From Clostridia bacterium (lineage in GTDB: Bacteria; Bacillota; Clostridia; Oscillospirales; Acutalibacteraceae), in contig JAFXGM010000039.1 in NCBI GenBank assembly GCA_017513195.1, forward strand, positions 1-34,773: a stretch of 34,773 nucleotides of DNA, written 5' to 3'. The notes under the pieces are model-generated. The model had not been told where the DNA came from. It ran no database searches and saw only the letters and a list, made by a program, of their open reading frames with translations. Positions 6,015 to 34,241 of the stretch are shown in pieces (position 1 is the first letter of the stretch; every line of letters begins with the position of its first letter). A program made the position numbers and the translations under genes.

Positions 6015-7067
6015 GTGATTATTATTTTAGAATTTTTAAATAATGTTTGGCCTTATGCCATAGCAATACTTTTATTTTTAATACTAATAATTATACACGA
6101 GTTTGGCCACTTTATTGCAGCAAAGCTGTTGGGTGTTCGTGTAAATGAGTTTGCTGTAGGCTTTGGTCCAAAGCTTTTAAAATGGGGTAAAAAGGAAACT
6201 AAATACGCCATAAATCTCGTTCCGTTTGGCGGCTATTGCGCAATGGAAGGCGAGGATGAAACCAGCTCTGACAGTCGTGCTTTTTGTAACAAAAAACCGT
6301 GGCGCAGATTTTTGATTGTAGTAATGGGTGCGGTATTCAATCTTATTTTAGGTTTAATACTTGTTGCTATAACACTTATACCCGGTGATAAGTTCCTAAC
6401 AACCAAGGTTGACGGATTTTATGAAAACGCTGTAAGCTCTGGATACGGCTTGCAAGCGGGTGACGAAATAGTAGAGGTTGACGGTAGAACAATCTTTACA
6501 ACCCAAGATTTAAGCTATGCTTTTAGTAACGTCGACGATGGAATGATAGATATTGTTGTAGAACGTGACGGCAAGGACGTAGAGCTTAAAAACGTAAAAT
6601 TTGCCACCGAAGAAGTAGATGGTATTAGTTATCTTACCGTAGATTTTTACGTGGTTGGTGAAGAAAAGACGTTTTTTGGATTTATTGGTCAAACCTTTAG
6701 CACAGCAATGTCTTATTGCGCAATCGTTTTCCGTTCGCTTATTGACTTAATTACCGGAAAATACGGTATTAGCGCAATGTCAGGTCCTGTTGGTGTTACG
6801 GCTACTATAGGCGCCGTTGCAAAGCAAAGCATATTAGACCTTATTCCTATTATGGCGCTTATTACAATAAACTTAGGTTTGTTTAATTTGTTGCCACTAC
6901 CGGCGCTCGACGGCGGCAGACTTGTATTTATACTTTTTGAAATGATTTTTAGAAAACCTGTTCCGCAAAAGTATGAGTCAATAGTTCACGCAGTGGGAAT
7001 AATACTGCTTCTGACGTTGATGGCGGTAATTTCGTTTAAAGATATTTACGTTTTGATAACGGGGTGA
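6015..7067 (+). CDS. rseP: RseP-type site-2 intramembrane zinc metalloprotease
   Basis: This membrane protease cleaves transmembrane substrates such as anti-sigma factors and leftover signal peptides. The zinc site HEFGH is in the first membrane helix (residues ~29-33). A single PDZ domain follows at about 125-205, then MSGPVGV and the second catalytic motif LLPLPALDGGRL near residue 297 with the zinc-binding Asp. It is 350 residues, normal for the Gram-positive form. I accept GTG 6015 as start because it precedes the first helix by the expected few residues and no other start fits. Only a weak AGG lies upstream, so translation probably depends on coupling to the SGNH gene 11 bases away. Confidence 0.93.
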   Translation: MIIILEFLNNVWPYAIAILLFLILIIIHEFGHFIAAKLLGVRVNEFAVGFGPKLLKWGKKETKYAINLVPFGGYCAMEGEDETSSDSRAFCNKKPWRRFLIVVMGAVFNLILGLILVAITLIPGDKFLTTKVDGFYENAVSSGYGLQAGDEIVEVDGRTIFTTQDLSYAFSNVDDGMIDIVVERDGKDVELKNVKFATEEVDGISYLTVDFYVVGEEKTFFGFIGQTFSTAMSYCAIVFRSLIDLITGKYGISAMSGPVGVTATIGAVAKQSILDLIPIMALITINLGLFNLLPLPALDGGRLVFILFEMIFRKPVPQKYESIVHAVGIILLLTLMAVISFKDIYVLITG

Positions 7068-27350: not shown

Positions 27351-27432
27351 AAAAAATAAAAAGCTTTAAAATCGTTTTCATCGTTAATTTCCTTTAATTA
27401 ACAAAAGATTTACGAGTTTAAATGTGACATTA

Positions 27433-27666
27433 TTGTGGCAATACGAGAAAAAATTACAATACCCCGTAAACATTAAAAACCCAAACCCCAAGTACGCTAA
27501 AATTATAATAAGTCAGTACGGTGGCCCCGACGGTGAGCTTGGTGCGTCTATGCGATACCTTACCCAACGCTTCGGTGAAGCGTTAGGTCTTACAACCGAC
27601 CGCCTAAACAGCAAAAACTTCTACGCCTGCAATCCGAATTTTGACAAAGGTTGCGGCAAGCAGTAA
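27433..27666 (+). pseudogene. cotJC: Truncated, mosaic second copy of cotJC
   Basis: The frame, open from GTG 27424, encodes residues 1-46 of CotJC joined directly to residues 173-202 plus one extra Gln. The missing 378 bases (126 codons) lie exactly between two CCAACGCT direct repeats at 25396 and 25774 of the intact gene, so the loss looks like slippage or recombination between them. The metal-binding core is gone and catalase activity is impossible. The original ATG is TTG here and no ribosome binding site is visible. The first 138 bases match cotJC at 137 positions; the last ~90 differ at about 8 positions plus a 3-base insertion. Confidence 0.88.
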
Positions 27667-27708: not shown

Positions 27709-27788
27709 TTGAAAAATGCGTTTAAATATGATAAAGTATTAAAAAATAAAACCATTTGAATTTTAAATTGCCCTTATTAAATGTAACG
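27709..27788 (+). promoter_or_regulatory. Promoter candidate and shared upstream element, copy B
   Basis: TTGAAA (27709-27714) and TAAAGT (27732-27737) are spaced 17 bases. Then comes a copy of the shared island element: AAAACCATTTG (27748-27758), TTTTAAATT, and CCCTTATTAAATGTAA (27771-27786), 39 bases before the next start codon. Its CCC arm has lost the matching GGG arm seen in copies C and D. Confidence 0.5.
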
Positions 27789-27826: not shown

Positions 27827-28882
27827 ATGATTAGAAAAAAGGCAATAAAACGCGTTATTTGGAAAATGCTGCTTTTTACAATAGGCACCATAATATTTGG
27901 AACACCATTTGTTCCGGTACTTATTATGTACGCATTAAAAGCGATCGGTTTCAGAGGACGTAATTTTGATCCCGAAGCAGATGCGAAATTAAAGGCAAGC
28001 ATGTTTCCCGAAGATGTTGCAAGTTACGAAAACACCGATATATTTGTAACGCTTGCATTGCCGTTACTTCCGTATCTTATTTTTACGCTTATTTTTCCAC
28101 AGTATCAGGAAATCGCAAACGTTATAGCACTATTAACAGTATATTTCTTGTTTTTTAAACCGCTTGTTGTTGATATTATCAGGATAATAACCAATAGTGA
28201 AGAATCAACGGCCAAGGTTAAAAAAATAGGGAATATAGGAATGATTGTTCTAATTGTTGGTTGTATATTATATATGATCTTTTTCCCGGTTTTTGTAAAA
28301 GCAAATCTTGACCACATTGGGCTTTGGAAGGATTACGTAAAAGAAACAAAACTTGATGCCCAACTTGCCTCATGTTTAGATGACGTAGAACTTGAATTCA
28401 ACTCGAAAAATACAAACGCTAAGGCCATAAAGGAAATGGAACCCATAAAAGAGAATGGTTTTATATATGAAAATAAACTTTACGTGTATTATGCATATAA
28501 TGCCGAAACAAAAGAATGGTTCTGTGAGCACGATTTTATAAAAACAAATACTAAAGAAATTTATGAAACTACGTCATGGAGTGGCACAGGAAACGATATG
28601 TTTCATACGGTATTGTTTAGTGATGATAAAACATACACACTTACGTTAGATGTCGGTAAGTTATCAGAGGTAACGGGTACGTTCGCAATTTCAGATACCA
28701 ATGGAACACTAATGGAAGAATATAACGTTACGTGTGTTGAGTCTAAGGAAGACAGATATAGACTCTCTGCTGACCGAACAATAGGAAATTATATTGATAG
28801 CTTTATCGTTGTATATGACGAAAAACAAAATACTTTTGTGTTTGATGATTATAATATTAAAGGCACTTTGACAAAAAAATAA
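27827..28882 (+). CDS. Four-helix membrane protein of unknown function
   Basis: I do not recognise this 351-residue protein. The N-terminal half has four hydrophobic segments (~12-37, 71-90, 95-120, 136-158); residues ~160-351 are soluble, with many aromatic and acidic residues and a beta-rich look (NKLYVYYAYNAETKEWF, DKTYTLTLDVGKL). With an even number of helices both ends should be on the same side, and the lysine-rich N terminus suggests the cytosol. AAAGGAG precedes the ATG by 9-10 bases. Preceded by shared element copy B and followed by copy C. Confidence 0.75.
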   Translation: MIRKKAIKRVIWKMLLFTIGTIIFGTPFVPVLIMYALKAIGFRGRNFDPEADAKLKASMFPEDVASYENTDIFVTLALPLLPYLIFTLIFPQYQEIANVIALLTVYFLFFKPLVVDIIRIITNSEESTAKVKKIGNIGMIVLIVGCILYMIFFPVFVKANLDHIGLWKDYVKETKLDAQLASCLDDVELEFNSKNTNAKAIKEMEPIKENGFIYENKLYVYYAYNAETKEWFCEHDFIKTNTKEIYETTSWSGTGNDMFHTVLFSDDKTYTLTLDVGKLSEVTGTFAISDTNGTLMEEYNVTCVESKEDRYRLSADRTIGNYIDSFIVVYDEKQNTFVFDDYNIKGTLTKK

Positions 28883-28892
28883 AAATTATAAA

Positions 28893-28950
28893 ATTTTTTA
28901 AAAATATAAAACCATTTGCTTTTTTCATTCCCCCTAATTAACGTAAGGGG
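28893..28950 (+). promoter_or_regulatory. Shared upstream element, copy C
   Basis: The best-preserved copy: an A/T tract, TATAAAACCATTTG (28905-28918), a T run, then the inverted repeat CCCCT-AATTAACGTA-AGGGG (28931-28950), 42 bases before the next ATG. The parallel copies are B (27741-27786) and D (32721-32773), with 15-16 bases between ACCA and the C run in all three. Its role is unknown: promoter-operator, leader, or a repeat carried along with duplicated genes. Confidence 0.5.
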
Positions 28951-28992: not shown

Positions 28993-29691
28993 ATGGAAAA
29001 GAAATTGAGAGTTTTATTTACAATTATAATGGCGGCTGTAATGTTTTTTGCGCTCGCTGTTCCGGCATCGGCGGAAACAGAGTTTGAATTTGATAGCAAT
29101 CCACAATGCATATGGTCAATTTCTATTTATGAAGGCAAAGAATACACCGGTTTTTGTGATCGCGTAGCTGCGGGCCATAAAATTTATTCGAATAACGAAA
29201 ATATAATGTCTGTTGAAGAAGATGGAACACTGGTCGCTAAAAGTGAAGGCCGTGTTGTTATAGCAGAAGTTTTTGAAGGTGAGCTTTGGCATTACTATGG
29301 ATTCTCGGTAAAACCAGCACAAACGGTTGTTGAATCGGACTATGAAACAATAAAAGATGAAGTAATAGAAACTATAAAAGAAAAACAAGAAGACGAAATA
29401 CATGTGATGGAAATTTTAGGTCCAATATTAATTTTGCTTGTTGTTTCTCTTGTTTTGGCAGAAATCGGTTACATATTTGTCACAGCACCCAAATGCGGCA
29501 TGTCAAGGCTTTGGGCATTGGCGCCGGTTATTGGTAACGTTTTTGGTCTTGTGGTATTTTTGGTGTTAAGATCTGTAGCAAAGCAGAATACCGCGACTAC
29601 GAAAAACGTTATAGTATGTCCGGTATGTAATGGCAGAAATCCATACGGTACCGACGTGTGTTCAATATGCGGCACTAAATTAAATAAGTAA
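28993..29691 (+). CDS. Secreted/membrane protein with Ig-like stretch and C-terminal zinc ribbon
   Basis: A 232-residue protein without an assigned function. It has a signal peptide (1-27, ending VPASA). Next is a short region resembling bacterial Ig-like (BIG2) strands: YSNNENIMSVEEDGTLVAKSEG. A charged helix (~115-135) precedes two membrane segments (~139-160 and ~176-196) linked by CGMSRLWALAPVIGNV, a pattern seen in several membrane zinc-ribbon proteins. The C terminus has a zinc ribbon, CPVC followed by CSIC. AAGGAG is 8-9 bases before the ATG. It lies 14 bases before another zinc-ribbon gene, so both are probably co-transcribed. Confidence 0.75.
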   Translation: MEKKLRVLFTIIMAAVMFFALAVPASAETEFEFDSNPQCIWSISIYEGKEYTGFCDRVAAGHKIYSNNENIMSVEEDGTLVAKSEGRVVIAEVFEGELWHYYGFSVKPAQTVVESDYETIKDEVIETIKEKQEDEIHVMEILGPILILLVVSLVLAEIGYIFVTAPKCGMSRLWALAPVIGNVFGLVVFLVLRSVAKQNTATTKNVIVCPVCNGRNPYGTDVCSICGTKLNK

Positions 29692-29705: not shown

Positions 29706-30203
29706 ATGTTTTGTACAAAATGTGGTAAAGAAATAGAAAACGATGCGCTCTTTTGCTCAAACTGCGGCGCAAAACAGGTTAATACATATAAAGAGGTTTT
29801 TGTTAGAAACGGTTTGTCCGAGCAGGATTTTATTGCGAATATCAATAAATGGTTTCAGTGGCATCCAAACGCCGCAAATATAAAATGCAAATTTGGTATT
29901 GATTCGTCTTTTGGTATGCTGGCAAACAAATATGTGCTTAATCAATTTGTAATAGAATATGAACTATATGAAAATAACAACACCATGCAGTACGGACTTG
30001 TAAAGGAAGAAAGCACTGCAATGATGAAAAAAGATACCAAAGATTTTATCGGTGCATGGCAACAAGCTCACCCAAATACAACTATTGTAAACTGGCAGGG
30101 CGGAACCCACCAGCGCGGTCACATGGGTGCACTTGCTCTTGGTGGAATAGGCGCAGTTAACCGAATGAATGCATATATATTCTTTAAATTTCCACGCCAA
30201 TAA
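29706..30203 (+). CDS. Zinc-ribbon protein of unknown function
   Basis: A 165-residue soluble protein. The N-terminal zinc ribbon has Cys3, Cys6, Cys17 and Cys20 (FCTKCGKEIE, FCSNCGAK). The rest (25-165) is a single domain I cannot place, with conserved-looking aromatic pairs (NKWFQWHPN) and a glycine-rich stretch HMGALALGGIGAVNRMN near the end that is too weak for a membrane helix. It follows the membrane zinc-ribbon gene closely and is closed by a terminator. Confidence 0.75.
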   Translation: MFCTKCGKEIENDALFCSNCGAKQVNTYKEVFVRNGLSEQDFIANINKWFQWHPNAANIKCKFGIDSSFGMLANKYVLNQFVIEYELYENNNTMQYGLVKEESTAMMKKDTKDFIGAWQQAHPNTTIVNWQGGTHQRGHMGALALGGIGAVNRMNAYIFFKFPRQ

Positions 30204-30224: not shown

Positions 30225-30248
30225 AAAAGGGCGTAACAACGCCCTTTT
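30225..30248 (+). terminator. Intrinsic terminator after the zinc-ribbon gene pair
   Basis: A 10-bp perfect stem AAAAGGGCGT (30225-30234) with ACGCCCTTTT (30239-30248), AACA loop, T-rich tail (TTTTAGTTTT). Confidence 0.88.
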
Positions 30249-30275
30249 AGTTTTCGTGTCGGGAAAATGCGATTG

Positions 30276-30304
30276 TTGACAGCAATATAGTTTGTTGCTA
30301 TAAT
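30276..30304 (+). promoter_or_regulatory. Perfect consensus promoter of the membrane sigma factor gene
   Basis: TTGACA (30276-30281), 17 bases, TATAAT (30299-30304): both hexamers and the spacing are ideal for the housekeeping sigma factor. Arms AGCAA (30281-30285) and TTGCT (30295-30299) form an inverted repeat across the spacer. A promoter this strong usually needs a repressor, for which this dyad is a candidate site. Confidence 0.75.
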
Positions 30305-30347: not shown

Positions 30348-32714
30348 ATGGCGATGGAAAAAGAAAGGCTGGTAGCGCTTGTTGCAGCGGCACAAAAAGG
30401 TGACGGTAATGCTACTAATGAATTGTTCAATGCGTTTTACAATGATTTGTATTATTTTGCATTAAAAACTATAAAAGATGATGACCTTGCGCTTGATATT
30501 ACGCAGGAGGCTTTTGTTGAAATAATAAACACTCTTGGCAATTTGAAAGAGCCTGCCGCCTTTGTTACCTGGGCAAAGCAAATTACTTATCATCAATGCA
30601 CACGATATTTTAAAAAGAAAAAAGATGTTATTGTTGACGAGGACGAAGAGGGCAACACCGTATTTGATACGCTTAAAGAGGAAAATGTCGAGTTTATTCC
30701 TGACGAGGCACTTGACAAAAGCGATTTTCAAAAAACAATACTGGGTATTTTAGACGAGCTTTCCGAAGAGCAACGCTCGGCCGTTATGATGTATTATTTT
30801 GACGAAATGTCGGTAGGTCAGATTGCGGAAATACAGGGTGTTTCAACGGGTACTGTAAAAAGCCGTCTTAATTATGCGCGTAAAGCTATTAAGGAATCGG
30901 TCGAAGATTACGAAAAGAAAAACGGAATCAAGCTGCACGCCATTGGATTTTTCCCAATGTTCAAGTGGCTTTTCGAGGGTTCGTTTGGTGGTGGCATTCC
31001 TGCGGCTACTGCGCAAACTATTGCCGAGGGTGTTACAGCAGCTACAGGCACTGCCGTTACGGCTTCGGCAGCCACAACATCGGCAGTTGCTACTACCGCT
31101 GTAACTACTACCGCAGTGGGAATAGGTGCAAAAATTGCTTCTATACCACTTGCTGCAAAGCTTATTGCTGCCGCAGTGGCAGCCACAGTGGTTATCGGTG
31201 GTACCACAACTGCAATTGTGCTTAATAATGATGATAATAACGATAAAAATGTTACGTATGTAAACTCGCAAGAGCAGTTTGAAGAAGATGACAATAAGAA
31301 CAACGTTGAACAAGACGCGATTGAAAACGAAGAAATCATAAAACCTGAAACAGAAGAATTGGTGCTTGAGGGCATCATACCCGAAGGTTGCACGTATACA
31401 CTATATAATGGCACTGTATTGACGGCTGGACAAAAATTTCCCGAAACTTGTACTGCTGGCGATAAGGTTGCATATGGTGACTATCTTTACGGTTATGAAT
31501 GTGTGTATGCTAAAAATATTGAAGGCATAGACACTTGGCATATGTGGAAAGATGGTTTTGATAGCGGCGATAGCGGCGTTGTAGAAAGTGACGTGTTTGG
31601 AAGTTGGTCTGTTATGGTAGCCGATCAAAGCAAAGAAACTTATGGAACAATAGTTTATAAAATAAATGGTAAGCCTATAAAAACCTTATATGGAACGTTT
31701 TTTGGTTGTACCAATATGACCGAATCACCTAAAATACCATCTACCATAACGGCGATACCGTCTGCATATTGGGGTTGCTCTTCTCTTAAAAAAGCACCAA
31801 AAATACCTGCAAATGTGCAAAGAATTATGATGTCTTTTAAAGACTGTGCTTCTCTTACCGGTGATGTTGAAATTGACGCCACTCTTGATAAGAGTTTAGA
31901 ATGGTATTATAGCGAAACGTTTAGTGGCACCACCCAAAATATTAACCTTATAGGCAAAACACCAGAAAGTGATTTAATCCTTATAGCACAGCATTCTGAT
32001 AATGTTAATATTACGGTAAACGGAAAAGTGCTTAACGGTTCAGGCGGACCCGAAGAAACACCAACGGACACACCCACTCAAGATGATGAACCAACAATCA
32101 AAGAGGAGACAATTGCTGCCCCAAATGTCGAAAACGTTGTTCCGACTTATGTATCGCGCCTAATGTTTTCAGCGTTGCCACACTTTTCGAGTGCGGATGA
32201 GCTTACTGCATCAAACGCATTTTGGTTTGCTTTTTATGGTTTGAATCGTGATAAATATCAAACTAGTATTTTATCGGATGGAACCACCGTATATGAAATT
32301 CCGGTTTCTGTTATTTCTGAAAGCACTGATATGACATTCGGTACGTCCTATGATTTTACGTCGATTCAAAACGAAGCCGATCCATTCATAGCCTCGTTTA
32401 CCGCTACATATACCGCAGTTGGCGGCGAGGACGTTATGCGGGTTGAGGCATTTGGCGGAGGCGGTGATGATTATCACCCCGAGGTTACCGAGTATATTAA
32501 ACTAAGCAATGATGAATATCAGGTTAATATTGCTTGGTATAGTGGGTCGAGTGAAAAACCAACAGAAGAAAACGCCGACTATTATTATAATGAGGAAACG
32601 GGCGACTATTGGATAGCCGATCGTTGGGAAAAGATGATAGTAAAATTAGCGCTTTTTGAAACGACTGATGGTAAAAAATTGAACTGGCGTATAGTTTCAT
32701 ATTCGGAAAGATAA
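30348..32714 (+). CDS. ECF-type sigma factor fused to a membrane segment and large extracellular region
   Basis: A 788-residue one-protein signalling candidate. Sigma region 2 is at about 10-85 (ALDITQEAFVEIINTL, FVTWAKQITYHQCTRYFKK). Region 4 is at about 135-185 (LDELSEEQRSAVMMYYFDEM, then the helix-turn-helix SVGQIAEIQGVSTGTVKSRL). Next is a low-complexity Ala/Thr/Val stretch (~218-265) and one membrane helix (~268-292). The remaining ~495 residues, predicted outside, contain an acidic linker, a BspA-like leucine-rich stretch around 448-518 (FFGCTNMTESPKIPSTITAIP) and a C-terminal aromatic-rich domain. No separate anti-sigma gene is visible. Start ATG 30348 has AAGGGG 7 bases upstream; ATG 30354 is the alternative. 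Release by proteolysis is inference. Confidence 0.88.
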   Translation: MAMEKERLVALVAAAQKGDGNATNELFNAFYNDLYYFALKTIKDDDLALDITQEAFVEIINTLGNLKEPAAFVTWAKQITYHQCTRYFKKKKDVIVDEDEEGNTVFDTLKEENVEFIPDEALDKSDFQKTILGILDELSEEQRSAVMMYYFDEMSVGQIAEIQGVSTGTVKSRLNYARKAIKESVEDYEKKNGIKLHAIGFFPMFKWLFEGSFGGGIPAATAQTIAEGVTAATGTAVTASAATTSAVATTAVTTTAVGIGAKIASIPLAAKLIAAAVAATVVIGGTTTAIVLNNDDNNDKNVTYVNSQEQFEEDDNKNNVEQDAIENEEIIKPETEELVLEGIIPEGCTYTLYNGTVLTAGQKFPETCTAGDKVAYGDYLYGYECVYAKNIEGIDTWHMWKDGFDSGDSGVVESDVFGSWSVMVADQSKETYGTIVYKINGKPIKTLYGTFFGCTNMTESPKIPSTITAIPSAYWGCSSLKKAPKIPANVQRIMMSFKDCASLTGDVEIDATLDKSLEWYYSETFSGTTQNINLIGKTPESDLILIAQHSDNVNITVNGKVLNGSGGPEETPTDTPTQDDEPTIKEETIAAPNVENVVPTYVSRLMFSALPHFSSADELTASNAFWFAFYGLNRDKYQTSILSDGTTVYEIPVSVISESTDMTFGTSYDFTSIQNEADPFIASFTATYTAVGGEDVMRVEAFGGGGDDYHPEVTEYIKLSNDEYQVNIAWYSGSSEKPTEENADYYYNEETGDYWIADRWEKMIVKLALFETTDGKKLNWRIVSYSER

Positions 32715-32720
32715 AAATTC

Positions 32721-32774
32721 TTAAAAAATATAAAACCAAAACAAATTTTAAATCCCCTTTATTAATGTAAGGGC
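32721..32774 (+). promoter_or_regulatory. Shared upstream element, copy D
   Basis: TTAAAAAATATAAAACCA (32721-32738), a 15-base AT stretch, then CCCCTTTATTAATGTAAGGG (32754-32773), with arms CCCTT/AAGGG, 40 bases before the lipoprotein start. It matches copy C in order, spacing and the ATTAAYGTAAGGG core. A further GGCC-rich dyad (GGCCAAAATGGTCC, 32772-32785) follows. Confidence 0.5.
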
Positions 32775-32813: not shown

Positions 32814-34241
32814 ATGAAAAAAATTATTGCACTCGCACTTTGTTTAGGCTTTGCGTTATCACTTGTCGCTTGTCATAATCCCGAGGATGGAGCGAATCAA
32901 CAATTAACTAGCGATGCTGTGGTATCAACGGAATCAAAAAAAGAAAACATCAATGATGAGGCAGATGTTCATGATGATGTGACCGATACGGATATATCTT
33001 TTGAGAACGTTACAAGTTTTGAGGATTTCAAAGAAAAATTTGACAAGGCGGGATATAAGCCTAATGTTAAGGAAACAGAAGATAAAAATGTGGTTATAAT
33101 AGATATTCAAACACCTGAAAATGATGACGATACTGACAAAGAAACTACAAGTACAACGGTTGCTCCCGCGATTCCTACGATAGATAGGATAGAAAAACCC
33201 GAGAAACCTATTGCCCCTGCAAATCCTACACCGGATAAGCCCGAAGCCGAACCGGAAGAAGATACGAAAGAGGATACAGAAGATATAGCTACACCTGATC
33301 TTATTGTTACTCCGGACGAACCTGCTGTTGAGCCTGAAAAGCCGCAGATTCAAAAACCTCAAGAACCCCAATATACCTATACAACCGGACAGACTCACAC
33401 AAAGTTGCATTACAGCAAACGTTATTTGTATTCAACGCTTAATGATGAGCAAAAGGAATGGTATCAGGCAATAGATAAAGCGGTCAATAACATTGATGAA
33501 GAGGTGCGTATCAATGCTAATCTTTCTGTTGATAGAAATCATTATATATTCTATATGTATCTTTTTGACAATCCCGAGCATTTTTATTTGTGCAACTCTA
33601 TTTGTGTGCACAATCACGGCGACGACACGACTACGTTGAGTTTTTACTATTCGGTAGGCAACCAAAAAGGTGAATACTGTGGTTACGGATATGGTCCTCT
33701 TACCGACGAACTTAAAAGTAAAATCATAGCAAAAAAAGCAATTTTCGAAGCAGAAGTGGACAGCATTATTAGCACCATACCGGCAGATGCTCCTGACGTT
33801 TGGAAAGAAAGACTCATTTATGACCGTATTTTAATGGATAGCCACTACAATCTTGGTGCTCGCTGGGATGGCCTTGCAAACGATAACTGGACAGCGTACG
33901 GCATCCTTGTAAACAAATACGGTGTGTGTGAATCTTATTCCGAAGCCTTCCAAACACTTTGTGCTTATGTGGGTATTAAATGTACGGGTGTTGTAGGTAC
34001 GGCAGGTGGAGGACACAAATGGAATGCTGTAGAGCTTGATGGCGAGTGGTATATGTGCGACATCACTTTCGACGATCCCATAGGTGGTGAGCAAGGTGCA
34101 GCATATCATTATTACTTCAACCGAACATCCGAATGGTTTATAGAAGATTGTCACGATTGGACAAATTGCGATTTTTCAGTACCGGAGTGCAATGGTACAA
34201 AATATGATTTTGAAAATTGCTTTGGCACTGACCGTTGGTAA
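32814..34241 (+). CDS. Lipoprotein with C-terminal transglutaminase-like domain
   Basis: A 475-residue exported lipoprotein. The signal peptide ends in a lipobox LVAC with lipidated Cys20. Residues ~21-190 are an acidic, Pro/Glu-rich spacer suited to crossing the cell wall. The C-terminal domain is transglutaminase-like, with the triad in order: Cys372 (GVCESYSEAF), His401 (GHKWNAV) and Asp416 (MCDITFDDP). Such domains act as cysteine peptidases or protein cross-linkers on the cell surface. AAAGGAG lies 10 bases before the ATG, and shared element copy D upstream. No partner substrate is evident, though the neighbouring repeat protein or sigma-factor ectodomain is possible. Confidence 0.88.
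   Translation: MKKIIALALCLGFALSLVACHNPEDGANQQLTSDAVVSTESKKENINDEADVHDDVTDTDISFENVTSFEDFKEKFDKAGYKPNVKETEDKNVVIIDIQTPENDDDTDKETTSTTVAPAIPTIDRIEKPEKPIAPANPTPDKPEAEPEEDTKEDTEDIATPDLIVTPDEPAVEPEKPQIQKPQEPQYTYTTGQTHTKLHYSKRYLYSTLNDEQKEWYQAIDKAVNNIDEEVRINANLSVDRNHYIFYMYLFDNPEHFYLCNSICVHNHGDDTTTLSFYYSVGNQKGEYCGYGYGPLTDELKSKIIAKKAIFEAEVDSIISTIPADAPDVWKERLIYDRILMDSHYNLGARWDGLANDNWTAYGILVNKYGVCESYSEAFQTLCAYVGIKCTGVVGTAGGGHKWNAVELDGEWYMCDITFDDPIGGEQGAAYHYYFNRTSEWFIEDCHDWTNCDFSVPECNGTKYDFENCFGTDRW

Follow-up and report, generated by a model that had tools for sequence, protein, structure and literature searches.

How could a sigma factor act on its promoters if its own chain holds it at the membrane, and which promoters would these be? 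The question is raised by a gene on contig JAFXGM010000039.1 of a Clostridia bacterium (Acutalibacteraceae), whose 34,773 nucleotides form the window analysed here (Table 1; G numbers designate genomes and L numbers loci). A sequence-only reading had described a single 788-residue frame in which ECF-like sigma regions 2 and 4 are followed by a membrane helix and an outside part, and the analysis confirmed this. Both regions scored above their curated Pfam cut-offs (Sigma70_r2, 36.1 bits, cut-off 24; Sigma70_r4_2, 50.8 bits, cut-off 25.7), as did TIGR02937 above its own (96.7 bits, cut-off 42.9). No region 1.2 or 3 was found among the 9 Pfam hits of the chain, which by domain content, region 2 and region 4 only, fits the ECF (group 4) sigma factors. 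The second methionine of the ORF is the start in most homologues.

Table 1. Features of the window, in order of position
Feature	Position	Strand	Basis or remark
RseP/site-2-type M50 protease, candidate for release	6015..7067	+	PF02163 (Peptidase_M50) E 6.7e-65
Element copy 1, upstream of the 27827 gene	27748..27788	+	2 mismatches to pattern
Predicted target: 351-aa membrane protein	27827..28882	+	by eye, no Pfam hit
Element copy 2, exact; ATG 85 nt downstream	28908..28948	+	
Predicted target: secreted protein with Ig-like part, membrane helix and zinc ribbon	28993..29691	+	by eye, no Pfam hit
Zinc-ribbon protein, probably in one operon with the 28993 gene	29706..30203	+	
Likely intrinsic terminator closing the upstream operon	30225..30256	+	by eye
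Perfect sigma-A-type promoter TTGACA-N17-TATAAT, GCAA/TTGC dyad in spacer	30276..30304	+	
Fused ECF sigma factor, 788 aa	30348..32714	+	single ORF without interruption
Sigma region 2, residues 26-92	30423..30623	+	Pfam PF04542 (Sigma70_r2) E 5.5e-9
Sigma region 4, residues 131-181	30738..30890	+	Pfam PF08281 (Sigma70_r4_2) E 1.3e-13
Conserved hydrophobic juxtamembrane motif (KLHAIGFFPMFKWLF) + Ala/Thr-rich linker without Cys	30924..31142	+	
Membrane helix, residues 266-284	31143..31199	+	hydropathy + flanking charge
Ectodomain module 1, residues 341-565, LRR-like	31368..32042	+	AlphaFold, Foldseek
Ectodomain module 2, residues 566-788	32043..32711	+	low-confidence AlphaFold model
Element copy 3, exact, between sigma and lipoprotein genes	32732..32772	+	
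Predicted target: lipoprotein (by eye) carrying a transglutaminase-like domain	32814..34241	+	PF01841 E 4e-6

Rather than an island, the fused architecture is widespread across the order. Among the matches listed in an order-wide survey, 40 of the 42 that reach the anchor run in one uninterrupted frame of 333-1303 aa, with no stop or frameshift between the parts, and these anchor-reaching matches come from 29 of 394 genomes (the G023 and G015 matches are the genes also numbered L034 and L035). A single-genome oddity is ruled out by these relatives with the same fusion, and a chance ORF or frameshift fusion by the single frame, the frames of the homologues and dN/dS. Within the chain, the sigma part is conserved most strongly and shows the lowest dN/dS (0.03-0.061, three pairs with unsaturated dS), compared to 0.075-0.124 for module 1 (six pairs, 68-89% identity) and 0.277 for module 1 against L038 (34% identity). 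Regions 2 and 4 have residues that are invariant across 13 alignment rows, and both regions are intact and under purifying selection. The large, surface-type ectodomain and the moderate membrane helix might suggest a protein that is mainly a surface LRR protein with a degenerate sigma factor at its N-terminus, but the conservation of the sigma part, together with the fact that the exchangeable part is the ectodomain, makes this reading very improbable. These comparisons show, at the level of sequence, one conserved polypeptide that contains the two sigma regions, the linker-plus-helix anchor and the ectodomain.

The membrane helix was assessed by hydropathy. The best 19-residue stretch, residues 266-284, has a moderate Kyte-Doolittle value of 2.09, with flanking charges of +1 inside and -3 outside. 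A hydrophobic segment follows the sigma part in 29/29 loci of the order survey, the inside flank being more positive in 24, equal in 2 and reversed in 3 by a by-eye tally; these 29 loci include G196 (L112), whose match ends at model position 214, while G334 was counted in the survey and is absent from this set. The hydrophobic stretch stands as a predicted membrane helix, which shares its chain, along with the outside extension, with the sigma factor. The linker of 74 residues that precedes it has a pLDDT below 50, and a folded anti-sigma domain was rejected there, two AlphaFold models having no confident structure in this region. As the earlier reading had noted, no separate anti-sigma factor was found nearby: none of the 10 window proteins scanned had a Pfam anti-sigma match, a negative that covers these 10 proteins; the neighbour proteins of relatives were compared by clustering.

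Upstream of the gene, the perfect consensus promoter pointed out in the same reading is real, being the sole perfect match in the window (0/100 shuffles), and its GCAA...TTGC dyad was visible by eye, but it is not conserved: no promoter matching at 12/12 positions was found within 200 nt upstream at any of 12 homologous loci. The idea that it is a conserved part of the system was therefore rejected.

The ectodomain had been described as about 495 outside residues with leucine-rich repeats. This is only partly right because the LRR-like fold is confined to residues ~341-565, residues 566-788 not being LRR. The first module is modelled with confidence (pLDDT mostly above 85 over residues 341-560 or so), its Foldseek match is a T. 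pallidum LRR protein (E 2.8e-3), and LRR_5 matches it weakly (E 0.02, residues 450-504, below cut-off); three scanned relatives (L034, L038 and L039) have LRR_5 above cut-off. The second module shares 18-28% identity with the same place in seven relatives. Across relatives, the ectodomains are of DUF3298, LRR, WG, Big_2, Cu_amine_oxidN1 and RCC1 types, and 46 of them fell into 26 clusters, two of the 46 being duplicates (L087 of the window, L088 of L040). From their sequences, ectodomains have been exchanged between relatives while the sigma-plus-anchor part was retained.

Which promoters could this sigma factor use? Some 85 nt before the neighbouring lipoprotein and surface genes, we found a new promoter-like element with the pattern TAAAACC-N16-CCCC(T/C)T. 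It comprises A/T tracts, a -35 TAAAACC, a 16-nt spacer, a -10 CCCC(T/C)T and a start near GTAAGG; the choice of CCCC as -10 is an unusual one, made from the spacing. The window holds 3 sites, compared to 0/100 shuffles. A first profile gave sites scoring 23.3-48.3 at 6/7 loci outside its training, with at most 8.9 in a shuffled control of 5 windows. It also gave a score of 15.7 to an unrelated position of the window (2466), above that of the L042 site (11.9); the later 28-site profile has no match there. In 18/24 sites a start codon follows at a distance of 82-87 nt; the list is without L063 (where a neighbouring site was picked), L074 (start not found), L076 and L083, and identical sites were merged, leaving 28.

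The element was then compared with the distribution of the sigma factor. Among 60 relatives, sites with up to 2 mismatches occurred in 4/4 genomes whose sigma is close (E no worse than 2.1e-90) and 1/56 others (Fisher 1e-5), a test that is partly circular, as three of the four sigma-positive genomes had fed the profile and G027 had not. In 14 sigma-positive genomes there were 28 sites (20 outside the profile), compared to 1 for a reversed-pattern control. G272, from another family and outside the profile, has three, of which one directly follows its sigma gene and another stands ahead of the lipoprotein gene that comes before that sigma gene. Two genomes with a close sigma, G428 and G273, had no site with up to 2 mismatches, G067 and G069 none with up to 3, and all four showed looser profile matches only. 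Among the genomes searched, the element rises above background only in those carrying the sigma, as their sequences show, and it largely tracks the sigma across genomes. It precedes the sigma operon itself in L036 and, in looser form, in L040, L042, L120, L121 and probably L119, where it is a candidate promoter suggestive of autoregulation; the window's own sigma gene has the sigma-A-type promoter instead. Autoregulation is common among ECFs (PMC5826349).

The element could belong to another regulator or sigma, the fused protein being merely a linked gene. The conserved block does extend past the promoter to take in GTAAGG and a small hairpin, the -10 is atypical, the genome has other sigma factors, and the two close-sigma genomes lacking near-exact sites also point this way. 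However, the element follows the sigma in the 60 relatives, if less completely order-wide, and precedes the sigma operon in several relatives; the fixed 16-nt spacing and the AAC of the -35 fit ECF promoters as well. We consider this alternative distinctly unlikely, and the switches adjoining the fused sigma gene are probably worked by that sigma.

The suggestion that neighbouring surface genes are its targets gains strong indirect support from this common element, and we treat them as predicted targets. A homologue of the lipoprotein (cluster clu1) lies directly 3' of the fused sigma in 7/13 neighbourhoods, and a homologue of the 28993 gene lies downstream of an element in G065 (L082). The 29706 product is similar to targets L051 and L065 in their C-terminal part. 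Targets and sensors also resemble each other: the C-terminal part of the 27827 product weakly matches the ectodomain of the G027 fused sigma (E 0.002), and the Ig-like domains of the L043 sigma match predicted targets of other genomes (E 1e-11). An RNA hairpin over the ribosome site of the lipoprotein gene was examined separately. Its outer stem (alignment columns 27-41 with 66-80, 6 sequences) pairs in 93.3% of cells compared to 41-59% when slid, but most measures were not above shuffles (cells paired 87/500, both-side changes 118/500, further types 342/500, the other two 42/500 and 41/500).

We think it rather likely that the protein is a one-chain transmembrane receptor, an ECF sigma held at the membrane, released by proteolysis and driving a small envelope regulon that sometimes includes itself. 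Its own anchor would keep the sigma at the membrane, away from RNA polymerase, until a signal sensed by the ectodomain opened the chain to cutting, first outside and next within the membrane by an M50 protease, for which the RseP-like enzyme already recognised at 6015 is a candidate. The freed N-terminal part would guide RNA polymerase to element promoters and turn on the transglutaminase-like lipoprotein, the Ig-like/zinc-ribbon membrane proteins and similar surface genes, as well as its own operon in some relatives. Both the promoter use and the release are what we infer for the fused sigma. Alternatively, the tethered sigma might remain uncut and, by capturing RNA polymerase at the membrane or changing conformation in response to a signal, transcribe nearby genes there. 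Many element sites do lie beside the sigma gene, as membrane-bound transcription would favour, and the linker is long and flexible-looking with low pLDDT. Yet some sites are on contigs other than that of the sigma (in G027, G063, G064, G071 and, as C39, in the window's own genome), an M50 protease is encoded in the window, and proteolysis activates IutY, a membrane-fused sigma that has been characterised (PMC8999054), as truncation of SCO4117 suggests for that protein too. We hold an uncut mechanism to be unlikely.

The fused sigma falls among the known membrane-fused ECF sigma factors, such as ECF52 and IutY, and is not a new kind; its conserved fusion to a membrane extension places it there, and by analogy its activation may be proteolytic. 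ECF52 (SCO4117 of Streptomyces coelicolor) likewise joins an ECF sigma, a membrane helix and an outside domain. PMC5826349 describes ECF52 as exclusive to Actinobacteria, with a zinc-finger domain and a carbohydrate-binding module, proposes release by proteolysis and reports its own motif at one of its own promoters. In contrast, the window protein has no Pfam zinc-finger match between sigma and helix (0 Cys in residues 193-266) and no carbohydrate-binding module among its 9 Pfam hits, its motif is TAAAACC-N16-CCCC rather than CSGYN-17-SRHA, and the ectodomains here are exchangeable. IutY (ECF243, Pseudomonas putida) also carries sigma and membrane part in one chain; according to PMC8999054, the latter is a membrane anti-sigma part and cleavage by Prc and RseP activates the protein. 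IutY serves iron-siderophore cell-surface signalling, whereas the window chain has no FecR hit in Pfam and none of the 10 window proteins scanned is an outer-membrane receptor partner. The same review names the actinobacterial ECF48 and ECF53 and some ECF36 as membrane-fused. A third likeness is to SigV-RsiV of Bacillus subtilis, since DUF3298, half of the outside part of RsiV, occurs in the relative L092. RsiV is cut by signal peptidase and then RasP (PMC5014341, PMC6066255), but SigV and RsiV are two separate proteins in Bacillus and the window protein's ectodomain is LRR-like, not DUF3298. No clostridial membrane-fused ECF of such design appeared among the literature titles listed, and the word 'firmicutes' is absent from the review of non-canonical ECFs.

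More tentatively, and at a little under even odds, we suggest an order-wide clostridial class of receptor-sigmas, in which a fixed sigma-plus-anchor module would carry freely exchanged sensors, among them part of the RsiV lysozyme-sensor fold, in the manner of receptor kinases. Each subfamily would have its own promoter and small surface regulon, and in some cases an extracellular domain common to sensor and target suggests that what the sigma senses is the very ligand or structure built or bound by its regulon. A one-chain receptor-sigma would bring sensing, membrane signalling and promoter choice into one protein, and its outside domain could be compared directly with the genes that it turns on. 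The swapped ectodomains would form a natural receptor series with a common transmission module, while a direct assay is supplied by the predicted promoter. The fused sigma may also serve as a scaffold from which one-gene sensors could readily be built in laboratory bacteria, and it suggests, in a form that can be tested, how uncultured gut Clostridia could control surface lipoproteins without a separate anti-sigma factor.

In order to place the 788-residue product of the fused sigma gene, we compared it with family profiles, structure models and homologues. The sequence-only reading had claimed a sigma factor, a membrane helix and an extracellular region in one frame. The single frame is real, and regions 2 and 4 match their family profiles above the curated cut-offs (residues 26-92 and 131-181). 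They are followed by a 74-residue linker with no cysteine (residues 193-266), a moderately hydrophobic helix (residues ~266-284) and about 500 further residues. In an AlphaFold model built on 13 rows, region 2 (pLDDT ~68-80) was better predicted than region 4 (~45-63), residues ~341-560 mostly exceeded 85, and the linker and residues 566-788 were of low confidence. Foldseek aligned the sigma part with AlgU, sigmaE and SigW structures (best E 4.1e-7) and the ectodomain with a leucine-rich-repeat (LRR) protein (E 2.8e-3). The proposed LRR ectodomain was matched weakly in the window protein itself (LRR_5, E 0.02) and significantly in the homologous loci L034, L038 and L039. The perfect promoter TTGACA-N17-TATAAT noted upstream was also confirmed, as the sole copy in the window (0/100 shuffles); no perfect sigma-A-type promoter occurs within 200 nt upstream in the 12 homologous loci, the best being an 11/12 match in L040.

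The fusion recurs. Of 60 related genomes, 41 gave a hit of some kind (E at most 1e-3), in many cases to plain ECFs or LRR proteins; closely similar fused copies (E at most 2.1e-90) were found in the window's own genome (G000), G015, G023 and G027. A scan of public genomes returned 12 loci. Their titles read Clostridia, Oscillospiraceae or uncultured bacterium, and several come from the gut of water buffalo or goats. The order was surveyed with a model of the sigma part plus anchor (alignment A2), and 134 of 394 genomes reached E 1e-20 or below. Most matches listed were ECFs that stopped around model position 180-195, typically with frames of ~200 aa; among the matches listed across the 394 genomes, 42 extended to at least position 263 (counted by eye). 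Forty of these, in 29 genomes, lay in uninterrupted frames of 333-1303 aa (by eye), the exceptions being G170, with a TGA inside, and G052, a 206-aa frame with stops. A hydrophobic 19-residue window scoring at least 1.55 followed the sigma part in all 29 loci examined (L087-L115), with flanks, tallied by eye, more positive inside in 24, equal in 2 and reversed in 3. The window's own genome holds a second, divergent fused sigma, and long frames resembling it occur in G001, G008, G010 and G018. A separate family of ~550-aa sigma factors from the same genus and order (L027, L029, L030, L031) has a C-terminal part without any predicted membrane helix.

The outside parts differ between relatives. 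We sorted 46 ectodomains, two of them duplicates, into 26 clusters (blastp E 1e-5). Domains above cut-off were LRR_5 (L034, L038, L039, L094, L098), Big_2 (L043, L103, L109), RCC1_2 (L044), WG repeat (L096), Cu_amine_oxidN1 (L097) and DUF3298 (L092, E 4.5e-9), with LRR_14 below cut-off in L095 (E 4e-8); 9 of 20 order-survey ectodomains scanned had no family at E 0.01 (3/10 and 6/10 in two batches). According to an excerpt of PMC5014341, RsiV, an anti-sigma factor that serves as a lysozyme receptor, has an outside part composed of DUF3298 and DUF4163. Part of a two-protein sigma/anti-sigma sensor of the SigV-RsiV type, half of the RsiV outside part, therefore occurs on the one-chain sigma of L092. 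Nei-Gojobori dN/dS of the sigma part was 0.03, 0.039 and 0.061 in three pairs with unsaturated dS, sigma-part dS being saturated in 6 of 7 pairs involving the window. Module 1 of the ectodomain (residues 341-565) gave 0.075-0.124 in six pairs of 68-89% identity and 0.277 against L038 (34% identical). Module 2 (residues 566-788) of the window is only 18-28% identical to the same-place sequence in seven relatives whose sigma parts are 74-89% identical, and the same discontinuity separates L033 from L034 (sigma 89%, module 2 23%). L033 and L035 have almost the same module 2 (98% identity); its dS is 0.07, vs 0.48 for the sigma part and 0.57 for module 1, as if module 2 alone had recently been exchanged between the two.

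The DNA between the fused sigma and the downstream lipoprotein gene is strikingly similar across loci: TAAAACC, 16 nt, CCCC and (T/C)GTAAGG or a near match. A first profile of this element, built from 8 sites, found additional sites before other neighbouring genes; the window has three, vs 0/100 shuffles. In six of seven loci that had not contributed (L006, L037, L038, L040, L041, L044), sites scored 23.3-48.3, with a maximum of 8.9 among five shuffled windows. The test is weakened by L042, the seventh, at 11.9, and by an unrelated match at window position 2466, which outscores it at 15.7, so that the L042 site is unconvincing by this profile; this makes it slightly more likely that the element serves another regulator or sigma factor. 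With a 28-site profile, L042 scored 33.5 and 28.7, position 2466 had no match, and the window gave two sites at 82-83 and a third at 44.4, vs 10.3 for the best unrelated place. The 28 distinct sites comprise A/T tracts, TAAAACC, a 16-nt spacer, CCCC(T/C)T and (T/C)GTAAGG, and the start codon, counted from the first A of AAAACC, comes 69-97 nt later; in 18 of 24 sites the distance is 82-87 nt. If this is an ECF promoter, the spacing would place the -35 at AAAACC, the -10 at CCCC(T/C)T and the start at GTAAGG. Most sites could form a short hairpin directly after this predicted start, with a stem that varies by site; compared with mononucleotide shuffles, 21 of the 28 have z below -1.

Across genomes, the element largely occurs together with the sigma. 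At up to 2 mismatches, the 60 relatives had sites in all four close-sigma genomes and in G046, where no gene start lies downstream (Fisher 1e-5, partly circular because three of the four had supplied profile sites). Allowing 3 yielded 17 sites spread over 11 genomes; the four sigma genomes held 10 of them, and the remaining 7 roughly equal the reversed-pattern count across all 60 (8, from the table). Twelve of 14 sigma-positive genomes had sites at this threshold, 28 vs 1 reversed-pattern, 8 of the 28 having served to build the profile; G067 and G069 had none within 3 mismatches and looser ones at their loci L040 and L042. In the order set, at up to 2 mismatches, 4 of 394 genomes had sites (3 reversed-control sites, read from the table): the window's own, G272, and G377 and G046 with one each. 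The three of G272 lie directly after the sigma gene, 87 nt before the lipoprotein gene preceding it, and on another contig. Co-occurrence with a sigma of E below 1e-120 gave Fisher 5e-4; such a sigma is present in G428 and G273 as well, which have no element within 2 mismatches.

Neighbouring surface genes had been proposed as targets, and elements do precede window genes 27827, 28993 and 32814, which are predicted targets. Of 13 neighbourhoods, one of them (L042) stopping inside the sigma gene, 7 have a homologue of the last immediately after the fused sigma. Predicted targets of the 28 sites are transglutaminase-like lipoproteins (7), a lipoprotein family with a common C-terminal domain (4; one scanned, no Pfam match) that we take to be SLAP-like, Ig-like/membrane/zinc-ribbon proteins (4, forming two homologous pairs; by eye), and, with 2 each, a family of 140-aa proteins, a further lipoprotein family and proteins with cysteine motifs. 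Other sites precede a lipoprotein that is DnaJ-zinc-like (below cut-off), a membrane protein, gene 27827 of the window and, in L036/L086, the fused sigma; for the last three sites (L074, L076, L083) no target gene could be clearly assigned. Looser elements precede a small gene plus sigma in L040, L042, L120, L121 and probably L119, and positive autoregulation is common among ECFs according to an excerpt of PMC5826349. These small genes and those of L041 and L006, the last lying after the sigma gene, loosely share the motif F..DK.EN.MP (by eye) and possibly encode a small regulator of the fused sigma. In the window, the start of a cotJC-like gene reappears as a fragment on the far side of an RHS-repeat gene, a pattern that would fit the insertion of a segment with a duplication.

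Coordinates of the features
Feature	Location	Remarks
Fused sigma	window:30348-32714
Perfect promoter	window:30276-30304
Element	window:27748, 28908, 32732
Hairpin, example	window:28944-28958
15-bp inverted repeat	window:32754-32803	CCCC block could pair with the lipoprotein gene's ribosome site; 6 lipoprotein loci aligned
Predicted targets	window:27827-28882, 28993-29691
Predicted target	window:32814-34241	lipoprotein, transglutaminase-like domain
Second fused sigma	L002:1345-3558 (G000:C21)	737 aa; outside part beta-propeller-like (by eye); two hydrophobic segments
Small genes shortly before fused sigma	L040:6722-6862, L041:7855-8004, L042:1712-1879, L119-L121	45-59 codons
Small membrane protein gene (clu10)	L033:7410-7907, L035:3978-4379	directly upstream of fused sigma
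Gene family clu2 near fused sigma	window:26121-27350, L036:3124-4362, L040:2873-3913	window copy has RHS repeat
cotJC-like manganese catalase gene	window:25265-25873	start recurs as fragment at 27424-27666
Sporulation cluster	window:22113-23638	antagonist-like (anti-sigma factor), kinase-like, sigma with regions 2, 3, 4; presumably spoIIAA-spoIIAB-sigF (sigma alone checked)
M50 protease	window:6015

By analogy with IutY, ECF52 and RsiV, as excerpts of the literature describe them, the fused chain would stay at the membrane until an outside signal permits a first cut; the M50 protease would then release the sigma part, which would guide polymerase to the element. Membrane insertion, inhibition by the tether, the cuts and promoter recognition are predicted steps of this probable scheme, the main rival being a fused sigma active from the membrane without cutting. 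Sensor and predicted target can in some cases share homologous extracellular domains: the two outside Ig-like domains of the L043 sigma are homologous to those of predicted targets L065 (E 1e-11) and L051 (4e-9), both from other genomes, with weaker matches between L090 and L084 (2e-4) and between L006 and the window's 27827 product (0.002). ECF sigma factors fused to a membrane part have been described before (IutY, ECF48, ECF52, ECF53 and some ECF36; PMC8999054, in excerpt), and some clostridial ones may already bear a group number in the 2021 classification. ECF52 carries a zinc finger and a carbohydrate module, whereas the window's fused sigma has neither. The apparently new part is a set of clostridial fused sigmas that share an anchor, have exchangeable sensors and come with a predicted promoter.
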